A DNA stretch of 64,000 nt from Flavobacterium gillisiae (GTDB lineage: Bacteria > Bacteroidota > Bacteroidia > Flavobacteriales > Flavobacteriaceae), in NCBI RefSeq assembly GCF_900107635.1, contig NZ_FNRD01000002.1:310001-374000 (forward strand), given 5' to 3'. Of this stretch, positions 12,652 through 60,790 are shown one piece after another (positions within the stretch are counted from its first letter, which is position 1; each line of letters begins with the position of its first letter). The position numbers and the translations under genes were made by a program. The notes beneath the pieces are model-generated. The model ran no database searches. It saw only the letters and a program-made list of their open reading frames with translations, and was not told where the DNA came from.

Positions 12652-14844
12652 TTATTTTATTAGTTCTTCAATACGTCTTAAAAAATTAAAATCAAGTTGT
12701 TTTTTAACTAGATCCGCATTTTTAACCTTAACGTAAATTTCGTCCCCTAATTGTAATAATTTATGTGAACTTGCTCCTACAAGTGCATATTGTTTCTCAT
12801 CGAAAGAATAATAATCATCTTTTATATCTCGAATTCGAACCATACCTTCACATTTATTTTCAATGATTTCGACAAAAATTCCCCATTCAGTAACTCCAGA
12901 AATAACTCCCAAAAATTCTTGATCTTTATGATCCTGCATGTATTTCACCTGCATGTATTTGATAGAGTCTCTTTCTGCTTGGGTAGCTAATCCTTCCATT
13001 GTAGAAGAATGTAAACATTTTGCTTCATAAGTATCTTCATCTACGGACTTTCCTCCGTCTAGATAAAACTGTAGCAAACGGTGTACCATAACGTCAGGAT
13101 AACGACGAATAGGCGATGTAAAATGAGAATAATAATCGAAAGCTAATCCGTAATGACCTATGTTATCAGTAGAATATTTTGCTTTACTCATCGTTCTGAT
13201 GGTTAAAGTATCTACTAAATTCTGTTCTTTGGTTCCTACAACCTCACTTAATAAACTATTCAACGATTTTGAAATATCATCTTTACTTCTTAAATCAATT
13301 TTATAACCAAATTTTGCGATAACCGTTTGTAATGCAATTAATTTATCTGCATTAGGCTCATCGTGAATTCTATAGATAAAAGTTTTCTTTTGTTTTCCAA
13401 TGAATTCTGCTACTTTTTTATTGGCCAAAAGCATAAACTCTTCAATCAAATGATTCGCATCTTTTGATACTTTAAAGTAAACGCCTTCCGGTTCTCCTTC
13501 TTCATTTAAGTTGAATTTTACTTCTACTTTATCGAAAGAAATTGCTCCGTCGTTCATTCTTTTTCTTCGGAAAATCTTAGCTAATTCATCCATTTTTAAA
13601 GTAGCAGCAACAATTTCATCCGAAACAACATAAGAACTTCCTGTAATGGAAATTTCTTCTGGTATTGTATTGTCCTTAGTTTCTATGATATATTGAGCTT
13701 CTTCATATGCAAAACGTTGATCAGAATAAATTACTGTTCTTCCAAACCATTGATCAACTACTTCACATTTATCTGTAATTTCAAAAATAGCCGAAAAAGT
13801 ATATTTTTCTTCATTTGGACGCAATGAACACGCAAAATTAGAAAGTACTTCTGGCAACATAGGGACTACCCTATCCACTAAATAAACAGAAGTAGCTCGT
13901 TGATAAGCTTCATCATCAAGAATAGTTCCTTCTTCAAGATAATAAGAAACATCAGCAATGTGAATTCCTATTTCATAATTTCCATTTTCTAATTTTTTAA
14001 ATGATAAGGCATCATCAAAATCTTTAGCATCTTTTGGATCAATCGTAAAAGTCAAAGTATCACGCATATCTCTACGATTAGCGATTTCACTTTCAGTTAT
14101 CGATGTATCTATCTTTTGTGCATAAGTCTCTACTTCTATTGGAAATTCAGACGGTAAACCGTATTCAGCTAAAATAGCGTGAATCTCGGTATCGTGTTCT
14201 CCTGGTTTTCCTAATACTTTAATCACCGCTCCAAAAGGACTATCCGCCCTTGAAGGCCAATCTTCAATATGAACTAATACCACATCTCCTTGCTCTGCCT
14301 CTCCTATTTTATCTTTTGGAATAAAAATATCCGTATACATTTTTGGATTAGCCGTCGAGACAAAAGAAAAATTCTTTTGAATATCAATAACTCCTACGAA
14401 GTCTGTTTTATGTCTTTCAATTACTTCAATGACCTCACCTTCAGGTCTTTTTCCTTTTCTTCGGTTGTAAACATATACTTTGACAATATCTTTATCTAAG
14501 GCATGGTTTAAATTATTAGTTGGAATAAATACATCCTCCTCTAATTCAGCACAAACAAAATAGGCTGTTTTTCTACCTGTCATGTCAATCTTACCTTCGT
14601 AATACTCTTTGCTTTCTGCTTTAATCAAATATTTTCCTGGCTCTGACTCTATAATTTTATTTTGGCTTGCCAATATCTTTAAATCCTTTATAATTTGGTT
14701 TCTACTTTGTGTATCGTCAAGTTCTAGCTTTGCTCCTATTTGTTTATAATTGAATGCTTTATTAGCACTTTGCGATAATATTTTTATAATTTGTTCAGAG
14801 AAATCTTTCTCTTTCTTTACCGGCTTTCTTATTCTTTTACTCAT
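12652..14844 (-). CDS. rnr: Ribonuclease R
   Basis: A 3'-to-5' exoribonuclease that degrades structured RNA and takes part in RNA quality control. At 730 residues it has normal length. Domain order: N-terminal winged helix (about 15-75), cold-shock/OB domains (about 75-220), the RNB catalytic domain with the metal-binding Asp cluster DPKDAKDFDDAL near residues 267-278, and a C-terminal S1 domain (about 640-720, GVISGVTEWGIFVEI). The HYGLAFDYYSHFTSPIRRYPD signature is present in the RNB domain. It is the first gene of the rnr-GIN-lysE operon. Confidence 0.96.
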   Translation of the reverse strand: MSKRIRKPVKKEKDFSEQIIKILSQSANKAFNYKQIGAKLELDDTQSRNQIIKDLKILASQNKIIESEPGKYLIKAESKEYYEGKIDMTGRKTAYFVCAELEEDVFIPTNNLNHALDKDIVKVYVYNRRKGKRPEGEVIEVIERHKTDFVGVIDIQKNFSFVSTANPKMYTDIFIPKDKIGEAEQGDVVLVHIEDWPSRADSPFGAVIKVLGKPGEHDTEIHAILAEYGLPSEFPIEVETYAQKIDTSITESEIANRRDMRDTLTFTIDPKDAKDFDDALSFKKLENGNYEIGIHIADVSYYLEEGTILDDEAYQRATSVYLVDRVVPMLPEVLSNFACSLRPNEEKYTFSAIFEITDKCEVVDQWFGRTVIYSDQRFAYEEAQYIIETKDNTIPEEISITGSSYVVSDEIVAATLKMDELAKIFRRKRMNDGAISFDKVEVKFNLNEEGEPEGVYFKVSKDANHLIEEFMLLANKKVAEFIGKQKKTFIYRIHDEPNADKLIALQTVIAKFGYKIDLRSKDDISKSLNSLLSEVVGTKEQNLVDTLTIRTMSKAKYSTDNIGHYGLAFDYYSHFTSPIRRYPDVMVHRLLQFYLDGGKSVDEDTYEAKCLHSSTMEGLATQAERDSIKYMQVKYMQDHKDQEFLGVISGVTEWGIFVEIIENKCEGMVRIRDIKDDYYSFDEKQYALVGASSHKLLQLGDEIYVKVKNADLVKKQLDFNFLRRIEELIK

Positions 14845-14962
14845 AAATCTTTTCTTAAAAGTCGAAAATTACGAAATAGTATGCAGTTATAAGAAAATAG
14901 CAGGCAGTTTTAAAGAAAATATAACTTTACATAATAGTTGTATCTTTATGAAAACAATAAAA

Positions 14963-15202: not shown

Positions 15203-15896
15203 TTTTTCTTTAAAGTTGTCAACACATATATAATACAATAAAAAAAAAAATTAATTTAAATTATTTATTAATGGGTATTATAGCTTGTTAATAGTGGCTA
15301 TAAATATCTAAGAAAAAGTATTGAAACCAAGTTGTAGAACTTTATTCGGAGTTATTAACAATACTATATTTACTTAAATATCTAGTTTTAAAGAGTTTTT
15401 ATATTTTAATTAACAATGGTTGATAAACTAAAATCATTTGAATTTGTAAATAAGTATTTTTTAAAATTTTGTTAATAAAGTACTTTTTTATATTGATAAC
15501 TATTCTAAAAATTCACCAAAGTAAATTTGGATTTCTAATGTGGGTTTTTGATTACTTATTTTTTTAATACTACAGAAAAATAGTTCTAATATTCTATCTC
15601 AAGTTATCAACAATTAATATTAACTTAAAGTTAACTGAATATCAAGCGATTGCATTTTACTATTAACAATGGATATTTTTAACAAAATAAATTCAAATTA
15701 TTTATTGATTATCAATGTTTTATGAAATAATGATAATTATTGATAACTACTAAACTTACTCGTAATCTGTGTGTTACAGTGCAGTAAAATAAGGCTGCTA
15801 GCGCCGTTGTTCTTTTTTAACAAATAAAGAATTCCATACTTTAATTATACAAAATTGTTTTGGTAAATTTGCAGTACACAACTTAATAGAAATAAA
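15203..15896. other. Gene-free AT-rich region with a DnaA-box-like cluster: candidate replication origin (oriC)
   Basis: About 690 bases with no gene and extreme A/T content. Nonamers close to DnaA boxes are TTATTAACA (15352-15360 plus, 15470-15478 minus), TTATCAACC (15418-15426 minus), TTATCAACA (15604-15612 plus), CTATTAACA (15660-15668 plus), TTATCAATA (15491-15499 and 15748-15756, minus) and TTATCAATG (15719-15727 plus), plus TTGTCAACA (15216-15224). A small GC-rich patch (about 15791-15809, GGCTGCTAGCGCC) stands out. Genes diverge from this area, with the plus strand dominating to the right. Inference only: no dnaA gene is adjacent. Confidence 0.5.
15864..15871 (+). promoter_or_regulatory. 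-7 promoter element of rpiB (TAAATTTG)
   Basis: An exact TAnnTTTG match 25 bases before the rpiB ATG. Confidence 0.55.
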
Positions 15897-16328
15897 ATGA
15901 AAATAGCAATTGGAAATGACCATGCTGGTCCAGAATATAAAAAAGCCATTGTAGATATGCTTAAAGCAAAAGGATATGAGGTAACTAATTATGGAACGGA
16001 TTCAAATGATAGTGTAGATTATCCAGATTTTGGGCACGCTGTTGCAAAAGATGTAGCTGAAGGAAAAGTTGATTTTGGAATTGTTATTTGCGGAAGCGGT
16101 AATGGAATTGCCATGAGTGCAAATAAACACCTGAAAGTACGTGCTGCTTTATGTTGGATGAAAGAGATTGCGGCTTTAGCCCGTCAGCATAATGATGCTA
16201 ATATTATTAGTATTCCAGCTCGTTACACATCTATTCCACAAGCAGTAGAAATGGTAAATACTTTTTTAAATACTGAATTTGAAGGAGGAAGACACCAAAC
16301 CAGAGTAGATAAAATTGCGTGTTGCTAA
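15897..16328 (+). CDS. rpiB: Ribose-5-phosphate isomerase B
   Basis: Interconverts ribose 5-phosphate and ribulose 5-phosphate in the pentose phosphate pathway. At 143 residues it has normal length. The opening KIAIGNDHAG phosphate-binding segment, the SVDYPDFGHAVA segment, the Cys-containing active-site loop VICGSGNGIAMSANK (about residues 62-77) and the C-terminal FEGGRHQTRVDKI segment are all RpiB-type. It is the first gene right of the AT-rich region and has its own terminator. Confidence 0.95.
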   Translation: MKIAIGNDHAGPEYKKAIVDMLKAKGYEVTNYGTDSNDSVDYPDFGHAVAKDVAEGKVDFGIVICGSGNGIAMSANKHLKVRAALCWMKEIAALARQHNDANIISIPARYTSIPQAVEMVNTFLNTEFEGGRHQTRVDKIACC

Positions 16329-52297: not shown

Positions 52298-52326
52298 TTT
52301 GGATATTAATAAAAAATGTACATTTG
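52298..52326 (+). promoter_or_regulatory. Promoter of the atpB operon (TTTG-N17-TACATTTG)
   Basis: -33 TTTG at 52298-52301 and -7 TACATTTG at 52319-52326 are separated by 17 bases, matching the Bacteroidota consensus fully. The predicted start lies near 52333, so the upstream in-frame ATG (52316) is not used. A small ATATCC-TTTT-GGATAT hairpin overlaps the -33. Confidence 0.75.
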
Positions 52327-52369
52327 CACCAAATTTCAGAAACGTAAAAAATTAAGATATTTAACAGTT

Positions 52370-53524
52370 ATGGTGATTTCAAACAGACCACTTAGATTTA
52401 TAATAGCGACTTTAGTAGCGTGTCTTCCTTTAATGACTTTTGCAAATCCCGAAGTGGATTCGGTAAAAGTTCATACTGAAGTTGCACACGAAACAACAGA
52501 ACAAAGCCATGAAGGAGCTCATGCTGAACCTACAGATGTAAAATCTAAAATCAAAGCATTCATTGGTCATCACGTTTTAGACTCTCATGACTTTACTTTT
52601 TTCTCTGATGAAGTAGAAGGAAAGCATTATGGTTTTTCATTACCAGTAATCCTTTGGGATAATGGTTTGCAACTTTTTTCATCTTCTGAATTCGAACATG
52701 GAGAAGCAGTTGCCGAATCTAACGGTAATTTCTATGCGATAAATCATCACGATGGAAAAATATACAAAACGGATGCTTCAGGAAAAATAATAGAAGACGA
52801 AAAAACAGGTTTCCCTGAAAATGAACGTCCCTTAGATTTCTCAATCACAAAAACAGTATTGTCTATATTCATTGCTGCGATTTTAATGGTATTGATTTTT
52901 GCTGGTTTGGCGAAGACCTATTCTAAAAATGGTGGAATTGCTTCTGGAGCTGGAAGAATATTTGAACCAGTGGTTCTTTTTATTCGTGACGAAATTGCTA
53001 TTCCTAACATTGGAGAAAAACACTACAAGAGATACATGAGTTATTTATTGACTATATTTTTCTTTGTATTGTTCTTAAATATTTTTGGATTGATGCCTTT
53101 CGGTATAAATGTTACGGGTAATTTAACAATTACATTTGCATTAGCAATCATGACATTTTTAATTACAAACCTTACGGCTAATAAAAACTATTGGGGTCAC
53201 ATTTTCTGGATGCCAGGTGTACCAAAAGTAATGCGTATCGTATTAGCACCAATTGAATTGCTAGGAGTTATAATCAAACCTTTTTCATTAATGATTCGTT
53301 TGTATGCAAACATTTTTGCAGGACACATTGTATTGATGAGTATTATTGGTTTGATGTTTATTTTCAAAAGCTGGTTGGGAAGTAGTTTATCATTTGCATT
53401 GTCGTTTGCACTTTCTATCTTAGAGATATTGGTTGCATTTTTACAAGCTTATATTTTTACATTGCTATCAGCGCTGTACTTTGGTTCAGCAGTAGAAGAG
53501 CACCACCATGAGGAGGCGCACTAA
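52370..53524 (+). CDS. atpB: ATP synthase F0 subunit a
   Basis: The proton-channel subunit of F0. At 384 residues it is much longer than E. coli AtpB (271) because of a signal-peptide-like N-terminus (about 1-25) and a His/Glu-rich soluble domain (about 25-165) with several HH and HE clusters. The C-terminal membrane part has the essential Arg in SLMIRLYANIFAGHIV (about residues 305-320) and ends EEHHHEEAH. Long AtpB N-termini are usual in Bacteroidota (family knowledge). The start at 52370 lies downstream of the promoter. Confidence 0.95.
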   Translation: MVISNRPLRFIIATLVACLPLMTFANPEVDSVKVHTEVAHETTEQSHEGAHAEPTDVKSKIKAFIGHHVLDSHDFTFFSDEVEGKHYGFSLPVILWDNGLQLFSSSEFEHGEAVAESNGNFYAINHHDGKIYKTDASGKIIEDEKTGFPENERPLDFSITKTVLSIFIAAILMVLIFAGLAKTYSKNGGIASGAGRIFEPVVLFIRDEIAIPNIGEKHYKRYMSYLLTIFFFVLFLNIFGLMPFGINVTGNLTITFALAIMTFLITNLTANKNYWGHIFWMPGVPKVMRIVLAPIELLGVIIKPFSLMIRLYANIFAGHIVLMSIIGLMFIFKSWLGSSLSFALSFALSILEILVAFLQAYIFTLLSALYFGSAVEEHHHEEAH

Positions 53525-53558
53525 TAAATTGAATGTTTAATTTTTAATTATATATATT

Positions 53559-53750
53559 ATGGAAGGTTTAAATTATGTAGGAGCTGGATTAATCGTAATC
53601 GGAGCAGGTTTAGGTATTGGTAGAATTGGTGGTTCAGCAATGGACGCTATTGCTCGTCAACCAGAAGCTTCAGGAAAAATCCAAACAGCTATGCTTATCG
53701 CAGCTGCATTAATTGAAGGTATTGGTTTCGCTGCATTATTTGCTGCTTAA
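53559..53750 (+). CDS. atpE: ATP synthase F0 subunit c
   Basis: The 63-residue hairpin subunit that forms the rotating c-ring. Helix 1 is Gly-rich (IVIGAGLGIGRIGG), the polar loop is ARQPE, and helix 2 carries the ion-binding Glu53 in AAALIEGIGFAALF. The helix 1 Gln and the flanking Ser/Thr of Na+-type subunits are not seen, so H+ is expected. A terminator-like hairpin follows it at 53766-53801. Confidence 0.96.
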   Translation: MEGLNYVGAGLIVIGAGLGIGRIGGSAMDAIARQPEASGKIQTAMLIAAALIEGIGFAALFAA

Positions 53751-53765
53751 TTAAAACTCAAAAAG

Positions 53766-53801
53766 CAATAGTTGCAACGGTTGGTTGTAACTATTGTTTT
53801 T
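53766..53801 (+). terminator. Intrinsic-terminator-like hairpin between atpE and atpF
   Basis: CAATAGTTGCAAC (53766-53778) pairs with GTTGTAACTATTG (53784-53796) with one G-U pair and a 5-base loop, then TTTTT. Inside the operon it could act as a partial terminator or 3'-end stabiliser that raises atpE mRNA over atpFHAG (inference). Confidence 0.65.
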
Positions 53802-53835
53802 ATTATTAAATTAAATATTATTATAGATACATAAC

Positions 53836-54336
53836 ATGGAAAAGTTAATACATCAGTTTGAGTTAGGTTTGTTCTTTTGGCAAGTATTAATATTTGTTGG
53901 ATTAATATTCTTATTGAAAAAATTTGCTTGGAAACCAATTCTTGATGCAGTAAATGATAGAGAAGAAGGAATTAAAAATGCTTTGCTTTCTGCTGAAAAT
54001 GCAAGAAAAGAAATGCAAAACCTTCAAGCTGACAACCAACGTATTTTACAAGAAGCAAGAATGGAACGTGATAACATGCTAAAAGATGCACGTGAAATTA
54101 AAGAAAAAATGATTGCTGATTCCAAAGAAGAAGCGCAAGCTCAAGGTCTGAAAATGATCGAACAAGCAAAAGCAGCAATCGAAAGCGAAAAAAATGCAGC
54201 TATGGCTGAATTGAAACTACAAGTTTCTACTTTGTCATTGAGTATCGCAGAAAAATTATTGAAAGACGAATTATCTAATAAAGAAGCTCAAACTAAATTA
54301 GTTGAGAAGATGTTAGGTGACGTAAAGCTAAACTAA
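53836..54336 (+). CDS. atpF: ATP synthase F0 subunit b
   Basis: A 166-residue stator subunit with one N-terminal transmembrane helix (LGLFFWQVLIFVGLIFLLKKF, about 9-29), then a long Lys/Glu/Ala-rich right-handed coiled coil (DREEGIKNALLSAENARKEM through KLQVSTLSLSIAEKLL). The length is normal. It starts 85 bases after atpE, across the hairpin, and precedes atpH by 4 bases. Confidence 0.95.
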   Translation: MEKLIHQFELGLFFWQVLIFVGLIFLLKKFAWKPILDAVNDREEGIKNALLSAENARKEMQNLQADNQRILQEARMERDNMLKDAREIKEKMIADSKEEAQAQGLKMIEQAKAAIESEKNAAMAELKLQVSTLSLSIAEKLLKDELSNKEAQTKLVEKMLGDVKLN

Positions 54337-54340
54337 TATT

Positions 54341-54874
54341 ATGGCAAGTACAAGAGCAGCAATTCGTTATGCAAAAGCAATTCTAGAGATCGCACAATCT
54401 AAAGGAGTGGCTGAAGCAGTTAGTGATGATATGAATTCTATCGCTTCAACTATAAGTGGAAATGTAGAATTGAGCACTTTTATCCAAAACCCTACTTTGA
54501 GAGTAGAAGTTAAGGAAAATGCCTTATTGGAAGTTTTTGCAAATACCAATAGCGTAACAAAAAGTTTATTTCATTTGTTGTTCGAAAACAAAAGATTTGA
54601 AATTTTGGAAGCTGTTGCAGTAGAATACAGCAAATTATTTGATATCATGAATGGTGTTGAAGTAGCTCAAGTTACTACAGCCATTGCAATGGATGCAGCA
54701 CTAGAAGCTAAAGTTTTAGCTAAAATTGCTACATTATCAGATAAAAAAATCACGATCGAAAATAACGTAGATCCTTCAATTATTGGTGGGTTTATTTTGA
54801 GAATAGGCGACAAGCAGTACAATGCTTCAATAGCCAACAGATTACAAGTATTAAAAAGAGAATTAAGTAACTAG
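54341..54874 (+). CDS. atpH: ATP synthase F1 subunit delta
   Basis: A 177-residue stator subunit linking F1 to subunit b. The N-terminal six-helix bundle (RAAIRYAKAILEIAQSKG) and the C-terminal conserved VDPSIIGGFILRIGDKQYNASIANRLQ segment are clear. It is 4 bases downstream of atpF and 38 bases upstream of atpA, so it is probably translationally coupled. Confidence 0.95.
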   Translation: MASTRAAIRYAKAILEIAQSKGVAEAVSDDMNSIASTISGNVELSTFIQNPTLRVEVKENALLEVFANTNSVTKSLFHLLFENKRFEILEAVAVEYSKLFDIMNGVEVAQVTTAIAMDAALEAKVLAKIATLSDKKITIENNVDPSIIGGFILRIGDKQYNASIANRLQVLKRELSN

Positions 54875-54912
54875 TTTTATTGCACATTTAAGTGTCTAAA
54901 TTATAAATTAAG

Positions 54913-56490
54913 ATGGCGGAAATCAAACCTGCTGAAATTTCAGCAATATTAAGAAAGCAAGTAGAAGGTTTTGAATCTGGCGCAACGCTAGAGGAAGTAG
55001 GAACCGTACTTCAAGTTGGAGATGGTATTGCTCGTATTTACGGGCTTTCGAATGTTCAATACGGTGAGTTAGTAGAATTTGACAATGGCTTAGAAGCTAT
55101 TGTATTGAATCTTGAAGAAGACAATGTTGGTGTGGTACTTTTAGGACCATCAACAGGAATCAAAGAAGGTTCTACTGCAAAAAGAACACAACGTATTGCT
55201 TCTCTTAAAGTTGGAGAGCAAATGGTAGGACGTGTAGTTAACACACTTGGTTTTCCAATTGATGGAAAAGGACCAATCGGTGGAGACTTATACGAAATGC
55301 CTTTAGAAAGAAAAGCTCCTGGAGTTATCTTCCGTCAACCAGTTACTGAACCATTACAAACAGGGATAAAAGCAGTAGATGCTATGATACCAGTTGGTCG
55401 TGGACAACGTGAGTTGGTTATTGGTGACCGTCAAACAGGAAAATCAACTGTTTGTATTGACACTATCTTAAATCAAAAAGAATTTTACGATGCAGGAAAA
55501 CCTGTATTCTGTATATATGTTGCAATTGGGCAAAAAGCTTCGACTGTAGCAGGAATCGCAAAAATGTTAGAAGAAAAAGGAGCAATGGCTTATACCATTA
55601 TTGTTGCTGCTAATGCTTCTGATCCAGCTCCGATGCAAGTTTACGCGCCAATGGCCGGAGCTGCAATTGGAGAATATTTTAGAGATTCTGGTCGTCCAGC
55701 TTTAATTGTTTATGATGATTTATCTAAACAAGCTGTTGCTTACCGTGAGGTTTCTCTTTTATTAAGAAGACCACCGGGACGTGAAGCATATCCTGGAGAT
55801 GTTTTTTACTTACACAGTCGTTTATTAGAGCGTGCTTGTAAAGTAATTGCTGATGATGGAATTGCTAAAAACATGAACGATTTACCAGATTCATTAAAAG
55901 GTATCGTTAAAGGTGGTGGTTCATTGACTGCTTTGCCTATTATCGAAACTCAAGCTGGTGACGTTTCTGCTTATATCCCAACAAACGTAATTTCGATTAC
56001 TGATGGTCAAATTTTCCTTGATGGAGATTTGTTTAACTCTGGAGTACGTCCTGCAATCAACGTAGGTATCTCGGTATCTCGTGTTGGAGGAAATGCACAA
56101 ATTAAATCAATGAAAAAAGTAGCAGGTACTTTGAAACTAGATCAAGCACAATTCCGTGAATTGGAAGCGTTTGCTAAATTTGGTTCTGACTTAGATGCAG
56201 TTACTTTAAACGTAATTGAAAAAGGAAGAAGAAACGTTGAGATCTTGAAACAAGGTTTGAATGATCCTTATACTGTTGAAGATCAAGTTGCAATTATCTA
56301 TGCTGGTTCAAAAAACCTATTGAGAAATGTTCCTGTGAATAAAGTGAAAGAATTTGAGAAAGATTTCTTAGAATTCCTTAACAACAAACACAGAGCAACT
56401 CTAGATGCTTTGAAAGCAGGGAAACTTACAGATGAGATTACTGATGTAATTCAAACTGTAGCAAAAGAAATTTCAGCAAAATATAACTAA
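54913..56490 (+). CDS. atpA: ATP synthase F1 subunit alpha
   Basis: A 525-residue F1 subunit. The N-terminal barrel ([20 protein letters not shown]) is followed by the Walker A loop GDRQTGKST (about 172-180), the [20 protein letters not shown] segment and the signature [14 protein letters not shown] (about 377-390) with the arginine finger. The C-terminal helical bundle is complete. It is the largest gene of the operon, but its catalytic partner beta (atpD) is not downstream. Confidence 0.98.
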
Positions 56491-56501
56491 AAAGTACTAA
56501 G

Positions 56502-56555
56502 TAAAGAGTATTAAGTATTAAGTATTAAGAAATTCTTGATATTTAATACTCTTTA
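56502..56555. repeat. Inverted repeat in the atpA-atpG gap
   Basis: TAAAGAGTATTAA (56502-56514) pairs with TTAATACTCTTTA (56543-56555), a perfect 13-bp stem whose loop contains three GTATTAA direct repeats. It may be an mRNA processing or stability element; it lacks a GC-rich core, so it is a poor terminator. Confidence 0.45.
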
Positions 56556-56580
56556 TTTGAATCTTACATACTTACAAAAA

Positions 56581-57441
56581 ATGGCAAATTTAAAGGAAAT
56601 CCGTAATAGAATTACTTCCGTTTCATCTACGATGCAAATTACATCAGCGATGAAAATGGTTTCTGCAGCAAAGCTAAAAAAAGCACAAGATGCAATTACA
56701 GCCATGCGCCCTTATGCCGAAAAATTAACGGAATTATTACAAAATCTTTCAGCTACACTAGAAGGTGATGCAGGTGGAGAGTTTACGACACAACGTGAAG
56801 TAAAAAAAGTATTGGTTGTTGCTATTACTTCAAATAGAGGTTTATGTGGTGCATTTAATTCAAACGTAATTAAGGCAGCAAAAAGTCGTTCTGTGTTTTA
56901 CGCAGGAAAACAAGTTGATATTTTTGCGATAGGTAAAAAAGGAAACGATGTTTTGGTTAAGACCAATACAATAGTTGACAATCAAAGTGCTGTTTACGAT
57001 GATTTAACTTTTGATAATGTAGCTGTAATCGCAGACACATTAACAGAGAAATTCCTTTCTGGAGAATATGATAAAATTGAGTTGATCTACAATCAATTTA
57101 AAAATGCCGCAACTCAAATCGTTCAAACTGAACAGTTTTTACCGTTGGCACCAATAAAATCAGATTTAACAGCTTCAGTAGGTGATTATATTTTTGAACC
57201 ATCGAAAGAAGAGATTGTTTTGACTTTGATTCCAAAATCATTGAAAACACAATTGTACAAAGGTATCAGAGATTCTTTTGCTTCAGAACATGGTGCTCGT
57301 ATGACTGCTATGCACAAAGCAACTGATAATGCAACTGAATTGAGAAATCAATTGAAATTGACTTACAATAAAGCACGTCAAGCTTCTATTACTAATGAGA
57401 TCTTAGAGATTGTTGGTGGAGCAGAAGCATTGAACGGATAA
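56581..57441 (+). CDS. atpG: ATP synthase F1 subunit gamma
   Basis: A 286-residue central rotor-stalk subunit. The N-terminal helix (MANLKEIRNRITSVSSTMQI) and the C-terminal helix (LTYNKARQASITNEILEIVGG) form the coiled coil that turns inside alpha3beta3; the middle has TSNRGLCGAFNS. The start is ATG 56581; the longer frame from 56536 adds residues made from the AT-rich gap. It is the last gene of the operon and is followed by a terminator. atpD and atpC are absent. Confidence 0.96.
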   Translation: MANLKEIRNRITSVSSTMQITSAMKMVSAAKLKKAQDAITAMRPYAEKLTELLQNLSATLEGDAGGEFTTQREVKKVLVVAITSNRGLCGAFNSNVIKAAKSRSVFYAGKQVDIFAIGKKGNDVLVKTNTIVDNQSAVYDDLTFDNVAVIADTLTEKFLSGEYDKIELIYNQFKNAATQIVQTEQFLPLAPIKSDLTASVGDYIFEPSKEEIVLTLIPKSLKTQLYKGIRDSFASEHGARMTAMHKATDNATELRNQLKLTYNKARQASITNEILEIVGGAEALNG

Positions 57442-60647: not shown

Positions 60648-60666
60648 AAATAATTAGGAGCTATTT

Positions 60667-60732
60667 CCTGCCATTCGCTATATCTTTTTATCCTGATAAA
60701 AATCAGGATAAAAAGATATAGCGAATGGCAGG
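60667..60732. repeat. 31-bp perfect inverted repeat with AAAA loop (large hairpin)
   Basis: Arms 60667-60697 and 60702-60732 are exact reverse complements, with a 4-base loop AAAA. The core CCTGCCATTCGCTATATC/GATATAGCGAATGGCAGG is unlike the surrounding coding sequence. A short A-rich run follows, but no U tract on the plus strand. It may end the flippase transcript or be a palindromic mobile or regulatory unit. Confidence 0.85.
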
Positions 60733-60790
60733 GCTAAAAAAAAGAACACTTTTTGCCAACTCACGATTGGTCTCATAAAAACAAATAAAA

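Follow-up and report, generated by a model that had tools for sequence, protein, structure and literature searches.

Does replication of the chromosome of this Flavobacterium start in the gap upstream of rpiB, away from dnaA? The window, i.e., the whole stretch of 64,000 bases analyzed here, corresponds to C24:310001-374000 of a draft genome of 4,376,610 bases in 32 contigs. The gap comprises 694 bases between a small plus-strand open reading frame (ORF) and rpiB, whose nearest relatives are those of Flavobacterium (Table 1). A preliminary description had named it a candidate chromosomal origin, a proposal now supported by a switch in GC skew, by synteny and by conserved boxes, and we consider it very likely that the gap is the origin (oriC). 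The gap is indeed gene-free: no ATG-started ORF of at least 25 amino acids lies wholly within it, on which basis a coding sequence was rejected, and no Rfam match at gathering score was found there, on which basis an RNA element was rejected. Elsewhere in the window, positions 60660-60739 of the minus strand match the Flavo-1 RNA (RF01705) with 50.1 bits. The reported switch in gene direction is visible in the list of ORFs, the ATP synthase genes are present to the right (52316-57441), and a nearest-neighbor stability scan revealed unstable AT-rich stretches in the gap. Among the other elements, the conserved non-box block is possibly a site for another origin-binding protein, and GTAAATTTG is presumably a -7 element, a call for which we take the TANNTTTG motif as the basis.

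Table 1. Features of the proposed origin region (window coordinates)
Feature	Position	Strand	Evidence
Proposed oriC, gene-free AT-rich gap, DUF2007-like ORF to rpiB	15203..15896		Box cluster, skew switch, conserved gap
Box TTGTCAACA, left end of array	15216..15224	+	Box-like in 57/57 aligned gaps
Candidate unwinding element (60-mer with the lowest stability in the gap)	15223..15282		Nearest-neighbor stability scan; putative role
Box TTATTAACA (TTATCAACA in 41/57)	15352..15360	+	Box-like in 55/57
Weaker box TAATTAACA	15407..15415	+	Box-like in 53/57
Box TTATCAACC	15418..15426	-	Box-like in 46/57
Box TTATTTACA (TTATCTACA in 31/57)	15445..15453	-	Box-like in 54/57
Box TTATTAACA	15470..15478	-	Box-like in 57/57
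Box TTATCAATA	15491..15499	-	Box-like in 46/57
Consensus box TTATCAACA	15604..15612	+	Box-like in 52/57
Conserved non-box block around AGTTAACTGAATATCAA	15628..15645		57-gap alignment; GTTAACTGA in 46/57 gaps
Box TTATCAATA (TTATCAACA or TTATTAACA in 44/56)	15738..15746	-	Box-like in 49/56
GTAAATTTG, probable -7 element of rpiB promoter	15862..15870	+	TAAATTTG at least 95% conserved in alignment
rnr (ribonuclease R), left flank, transcription away from gap	12652..14844	-	Pfam RNB, 8.9e-110
DUF2007-like ORF, 79 aa	14963..15202	+	Pfam E 3.4e-4, 21.2 bits, below curated cutoff of 25.7
rpiB, right flank, transcription away from gap	15897..16328	+	Pfam LacAB_rpiB, 4.5e-59

At least eight TTATYAAYN nonamers had been reported between 15352 and 15756. 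We found exactly eight in the whole gap, on both strands (plus, 15265, 15352, 15604 and 15709; minus, 15418, 15470, 15491 and 15738), of which only seven fall within that span. The number expected is 1.37, none of 2,000 order-2 Markov sequences reached eight, and the gap is the densest 600-base cluster of such nonamers in 364 kb of sequence from the same genome, where the runner-up contains four. Sites 15265 and 15709 are probably chance matches, since they are not conserved in relatives (box-like in 0/57 and 7/57 aligned gaps, respectively); the conserved sites 15216, 15407 and 15445, on the other hand, fall outside the TTATYAAYN form. It could be argued from these two unconserved sites among the eight, and from the lack of genome-wide enrichment of TTATCAACA (103 occurrences versus 104 of the reversed pattern), that the nonamers are chance products of an AT-rich gap and that the origin lies elsewhere, e.g., at dnaA. 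Given the simulations and the conservation of the boxes in 57 gaps, this explanation is already disfavored and appears very improbable. As TTATCAACA is not enriched genome-wide, the signal resides in clusters and pairs rather than in the total count.

Both the arrangement of the locus and the nonamers themselves had been proposed for comparison with related genomes, and both turned out to be conserved. Among 80 fetched rpiB loci, 74 had at least 3.99 kb of upstream sequence; rnr was located upstream on the minus strand in 72 of these, and 68 carried the DUF2007-like ORF upstream of rpiB in plus orientation (tblastn). Removal from the 80 loci of 16 without DUF2007 by a strict regular expression and of 8 with gaps of 1456-2580 bases left 56, which together with the window gave 57 Flavobacterium gaps of 579-1035 bases. 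The eight long gaps (L030, L031, L036, L069, L074, L076, L089 and L096) carry an extra ORF between DUF2007 and rpiB. Two records with flavobacterial rnr-rpiB loci, L046 and L088, are metagenome-assembled genomes (MAGs) titled Rhizobium sp. and Bifidobacterium breve, probably mislabeled bins.

Nine sites were box-like in at least 46 of the 56 or 57 gaps. Conservation was 94% in the alignment columns of the ten box sites named in our script and 81% outside them. The most frequent forms, counted across the 57 gaps against order-2 Markov expectation, were TTATCAACA (95 versus 3.0), TTATTAACA (84 versus 8.2), TTATCAATA (47 versus 4.0), TTGTCAACA (44 versus 0.9), TTTTCAACA (41 versus 5.6) and TTATCTACA (31 versus 0.9), although these counts are not independent events because the genomes are related. 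TTATCCACA was absent from all 57 gaps (0.4 expected), and the gap of the window contains no TT[AT]TNCACA. The boxes, already noted to be variants rather than perfect copies of TTATCCACA, appear to represent a box peculiar to this lineage, TTATNAACA. Of 20 rpiB loci from other genera of the family, 18 have rnr upstream, one of the two exceptions being cut by a contig end. The same leading motif emerged unprompted from 39 gaps of these genera (44, minus 5 under 350 bases): TTATTAACA occurred 37 times (4.3 expected) and TTATCAACA 21 times (1.25 expected), along with 9 copies of TTATTCACA (0.95 expected) and 3 of TTATCCACA (0.5 expected).

The lowest cumulative GC skew in the window is at 14854, to the left of the gap by 349 bases. 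Skew was computed locally, since the 32-contig draft yields no whole-chromosome plot, and 14854 stayed the minimum across C24:270001-394000. In 1-kb steps, the skew was mostly about -0.2 before 15 kb and mostly about +0.1 after it, with irregularities such as the slightly positive stretch C24:240001-250000 left of the origin and the mixed stretch C24:374001-394000. The step across rpiB amounted to 0.286, more than in any of the 65 other stretches that were sampled (largest, 0.156). Three complete relatives were sampled as 20 stretches of 20 kb per chromosome, and two of them agreed with this placement, so that the skew-minimum check suggested in the preliminary description came out in favor of the locus. 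In CP045928, for which 1 of the 20 stretches read N, the sampled minimum was at 5245 kb (retained in 17 of 19 leave-one-out runs), and the local minimum, 5,250,784, fell inside the gap, the end of rpiB being at ∼5,250,233 and dnaA at 6362 kb. In AP025183, the sampled minimum was at 630 kb (leave-one-out range, 425-655 kb), with rpiB at ∼643 kb and dnaA at 1 kb; the finest local minimum, 640,573, was ∼2 kb beyond rpiB. The third relative, the MAG CP051546, had a sampled minimum at 510 kb, a local one at 467,257 and rpiB at 451 kb, but its leave-one-out values were unstable (55-850 kb), and taken alone it is not supportive.

The region thus combines a skew minimum (local, and in two of three complete relatives) with an above-chance, conserved cluster of TTATNAACA-type boxes, both of which are expected of a bacterial oriC, whereas the C at position 6 of the E. 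coli-type box (TTATNCACA) is not found. An origin at dnaA was rejected on skew and contig position, as judged from the genome of the window, AP025183 and CP045928. In the first of these, dnaA lies on another contig (C18), at a locus without a comparable skew switch, and TTATNAACA was not found in the 351 bases upstream of the gene, where only TTTTTTACA and TTGTTCACA are present. In other genera of the family, the skew step at rpiB was weaker, with a median of 0.089 (n = 19, 1 of 20 loci being too short), compared to -0.007 at 20 box-pair loci elsewhere (P = 0.0002). Most of these genera show almost no skew to the right of rpiB, which makes the position of the origin outside Flavobacterium less certain. 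Ori-Finder 2022 places oriC at mnmG in two published genomes of the Flavobacteriaceae, Mariniflexile litorale (PMC11278836) and Algorimicrobium (PMC12843772), which counts against the rnr-rpiB reading. No paper on an rnr-rpiB origin was apparent, by title or start of the abstract, among the matches listed in the CC0, CC BY and CC BY-SA literature, a body of text that does not include DoriC; by title, papers containing these nonamers concerned a mycoplasma, a phytoplasma and a cyanobacterium, again among the matches listed.

The same boxes also occur as pairs. We searched 60 whole genomes for direct pairs of the form TTATYAACA-N(0-30)-TTATYAACA and obtained 49 hits, compared to 13 for the reversed pattern, which served as a control. 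The 17 genomes of Flavobacteriaceae other than Flavobacterium whose DnaA has alanine at E. coli position 435 (A435; see below) accounted for 31 pairs, of which 17 precede hup, between fmt and a DUF179 gene, 5 precede dnaB and 9 lie elsewhere. Fifteen of the hup pairs and three of the dnaB pairs were seen in fetched DNA, and two of each were placed by coordinates; gene identities were checked by Pfam on one protein each (Bac_DNA_binding, DnaB, DUF179 and Formyl_trans). A directed promoter search left box positions 5 and 6 free and covered A435 genomes of the Flavobacteriaceae, A435 being assumed from the genus for four Flavobacterium genomes (G024, G028, G060 and G087). It detected a pair before hup in all 17 of those in which HU was found beside the DUF179 gene (it was not found there in 10 of 28 loci). 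Before dnaB, 17 of 18 had a pair and the remaining one a single box at the same place. The hup pair was absent in G056, a member of the family with serine at position 435 (S435), and of four A435 genomes from outside the family, none had the dnaB pair. In the genome of the window, the hup pair reads TTATGAACA/TTATCAACA, and dnaB is preceded by TTATCAACA at -208 and by a TTATAAACA pair. In the 364-kb sample of this genome, which includes neither hup nor dnaB, there was no TTATBAACA pair at the spacing seen at these promoters and there were five loose ones. A different arrangement was seen in G134, where TTATCAACA, TTATCAACA and TTATTAACA follow each other at exact 12-base steps inside a 167-amino-acid ORF (L302:10311-10343).

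The spacing of the hup and dnaB pairs was narrowly distributed (20 bases in 23 pairs, 21 in 10 and 19 in 1). Position 6 of their boxes was A in 67 cases and C in 1 (n = 68), while position 5 was free (T24 C25 G11 A8), and the box is therefore best written TTATNAACA. That TTATNAACA is recognized by DnaA is likely, although binding is deduced here from sequence. Pairs of these boxes, with members separated by some two helical turns, precede both genes, so that DnaA probably also regulates hup and dnaB; such control is plausible, its direction being a matter of conjecture. The presence of identical pairs at these promoters could also point to another regulator, in which case the gap would be a regulatory region of rpiB that lies near the origin by accident. 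We regard this as improbable: apart from a single letter, the motif is the DnaA box, replication genes are among its targets, its cluster is located where the skew switches, and the form with C at position 6 (C6, as opposed to A6) follows the DnaA residue.

This residue lies in domain IV. There, the DnaA of the window's genome, which can be aligned with that of E. coli (1j1v, E = 1e-17), has GDRDHATVLHA in place of GGRDHTTVLHA, with alanine at E. coli position 435. A435 was present in all 30 other genera examined and in four Flavobacterium genomes; G056, of the same family, has serine. Residues 432-435 and 438-439 are described as contacting bases (PMC5043019), and T435M as binding defective (PMC5742627). 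TTATYAACA pairs were found in 25 of 39 A435 genomes, 3 of 16 S435 genomes and none of 5 genomes with threonine (T435), and TTATNCACA pairs in 4, 6 and 3, respectively (Fisher P = 0.0003 for A6 and 0.007 for C6, values that ignore shared ancestry). Compared to the reversed control, A435 genomes had 43 A6 pairs (control, 10) and 5 C6 pairs (control, 7), whereas the 21 S435/T435 genomes had 6 A6 pairs (control, 3) and 17 C6 pairs (control, 2), 6 of the 17 coming from G273 alone. Eight TTATNCACA boxes, forming six overlapping pairs, lie within 268 bases of that S435 genome (G273:C128:15238-15505), possibly its oriC. Position 6 at dnaB promoters was A47 C2 T3 G1 with A435, A6 C7 T2 with S435 and A2 C6 with T435.

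In a tree of DnaA itself, with several long branches and few independent changes (59 of 62 rows kept, 3 being too short, and two serving as outgroups), all 39 A435 rows fell into one clade of 42 (support 96/88). Two S435 lineages, G015/G098 and G056, are nested within it. G098 has two TTATCCACA pairs ∼150 bases apart, neither kind of pair occurs in G015, and G056 has a TTATCCACA pair as well as TTATCCACA beside TTATCAACA at dnaB. Counterexamples exist in both directions: G083 and G102 are S435 with TTATYAACA pairs, G273 has one such pair beside its six C6 pairs, and four A435 genomes (G000, G160, G181 and G268), the window's own among them, carry a TTATNCACA pair.

Whether residue 435 caused the change in the box is, in our judgment, about an even question. 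With the origin still at this locus, A6 might instead have arisen by drift toward AT or through another residue, such as 431, which is K, Q, D, S or R in this family and G in E. coli. This alternative is less likely than not, though several points favor it: the gaps are AT-rich, so that composition could favor A at position 6, the confinement of A435 to one clade means that much of the association reflects shared ancestry, and G083 and G102 do not fit a role of residue 435. Drift alone is nevertheless insufficient, as position 5 is free in the very boxes in which position 6 is almost invariably A. As for residue 431, it is G in the A435 genomes that do not belong to the family, eight of which nevertheless carry TTATYAACA pairs, and G056 shares Q431 with several sisters but has S435 and C6 boxes. 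We give even odds to a rewriting of the recognition code in one Bacteroidota clade, in which T/S435 would have become A435 and TTATNCACA would have given way to TTATNAACA jointly at oriC, before hup and before dnaB, with at least two later reversals to S435 and TTATCCACA.

Initiation at the rnr-rpiB gap could then proceed as follows. DnaA, supplied from a gene on another contig, would bind about nine conserved TTATNAACA boxes and weaker variants, with A instead of the C of TTATNCACA at position 6 in step with alanine replacing threonine or serine at DnaA 435. Bound DnaA would oligomerize and open an AT-rich element, probably the candidate at the left (15223-15282), whereupon DnaB would be loaded and two forks would leave, one leftward and one rightward. 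To this explanation as a whole, i.e., oriC in the gap, DnaA acting on TTATNAACA boxes with a shift at residue 435, and probable regulation of hup and dnaB, we assign a probability of roughly 0.88. With TTATNAACA as a lineage box, origin calls as well as read-depth estimates of growth rate would become sharper for a large bacterial group within Bacteroidota. If the link between residue and box is true, an essential DNA code present in many copies can change and revert, and a small candidate DnaA regulon (hup and dnaB) can be named. The rewriting of the code, if true, would provide a natural series of initiator specificity switches and would mean that DnaA controls the supply of its own helicase as well as that of HU.

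The proposed origin resembles oriC of E. coli and B. subtilis in its box cluster on both strands, its AT-rich stretches, its GC-skew minimum and its flanking genes pointing away. It differs from them in its distance from dnaA, in its rnr and rpiB flanks, in its A6 boxes and in the lack of DnaA-trio enrichment: across the 57 gaps, runs of at least three TA[GA] numbered 0.21 (0.42 expected) and looser runs of at least four 5'-[TA]A[GA]-3', counted irrespective of their distance to boxes, 0.72 (0.94 expected). The triplet runs of the basal unwinding system, a box next to a DnaA-trio, are accordingly not above chance in these gaps. Within Bacteroidota, an oriC far from dnaA is common according to PMC4755523, and such a location is stated for Prevotella intermedia OMA14 (PMC4755523) and Mariniflexile litorale (PMC11278836). 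As in the Ori-Finder/DoriC predictions for this phylum, the proposed oriC lies at the skew switch. In Prevotella, the search was for E. coli boxes, one mismatch being allowed (PMC4755523), and the default box of Ori-Finder 2022 is TTATCCACA, others being selectable (PMC10225481); the excerpted text of the prediction papers (PMC4755523, PMC11278836 and PMC12843772) contains no mention of an A6 box, of the rnr-rpiB gap or of hup and dnaB sites. The new part is the box, in an A6 form that tracks the change in DnaA. A lineage-wide box change, with DnaA residues 435 and 438-439 suspected, is also described for Epsilonproteobacteria (core TTCAC; PMC5043019); there, position 5 is a fixed T and C6 is kept, whereas the Flavobacterium box has A at position 6 and tolerates any base at position 5.
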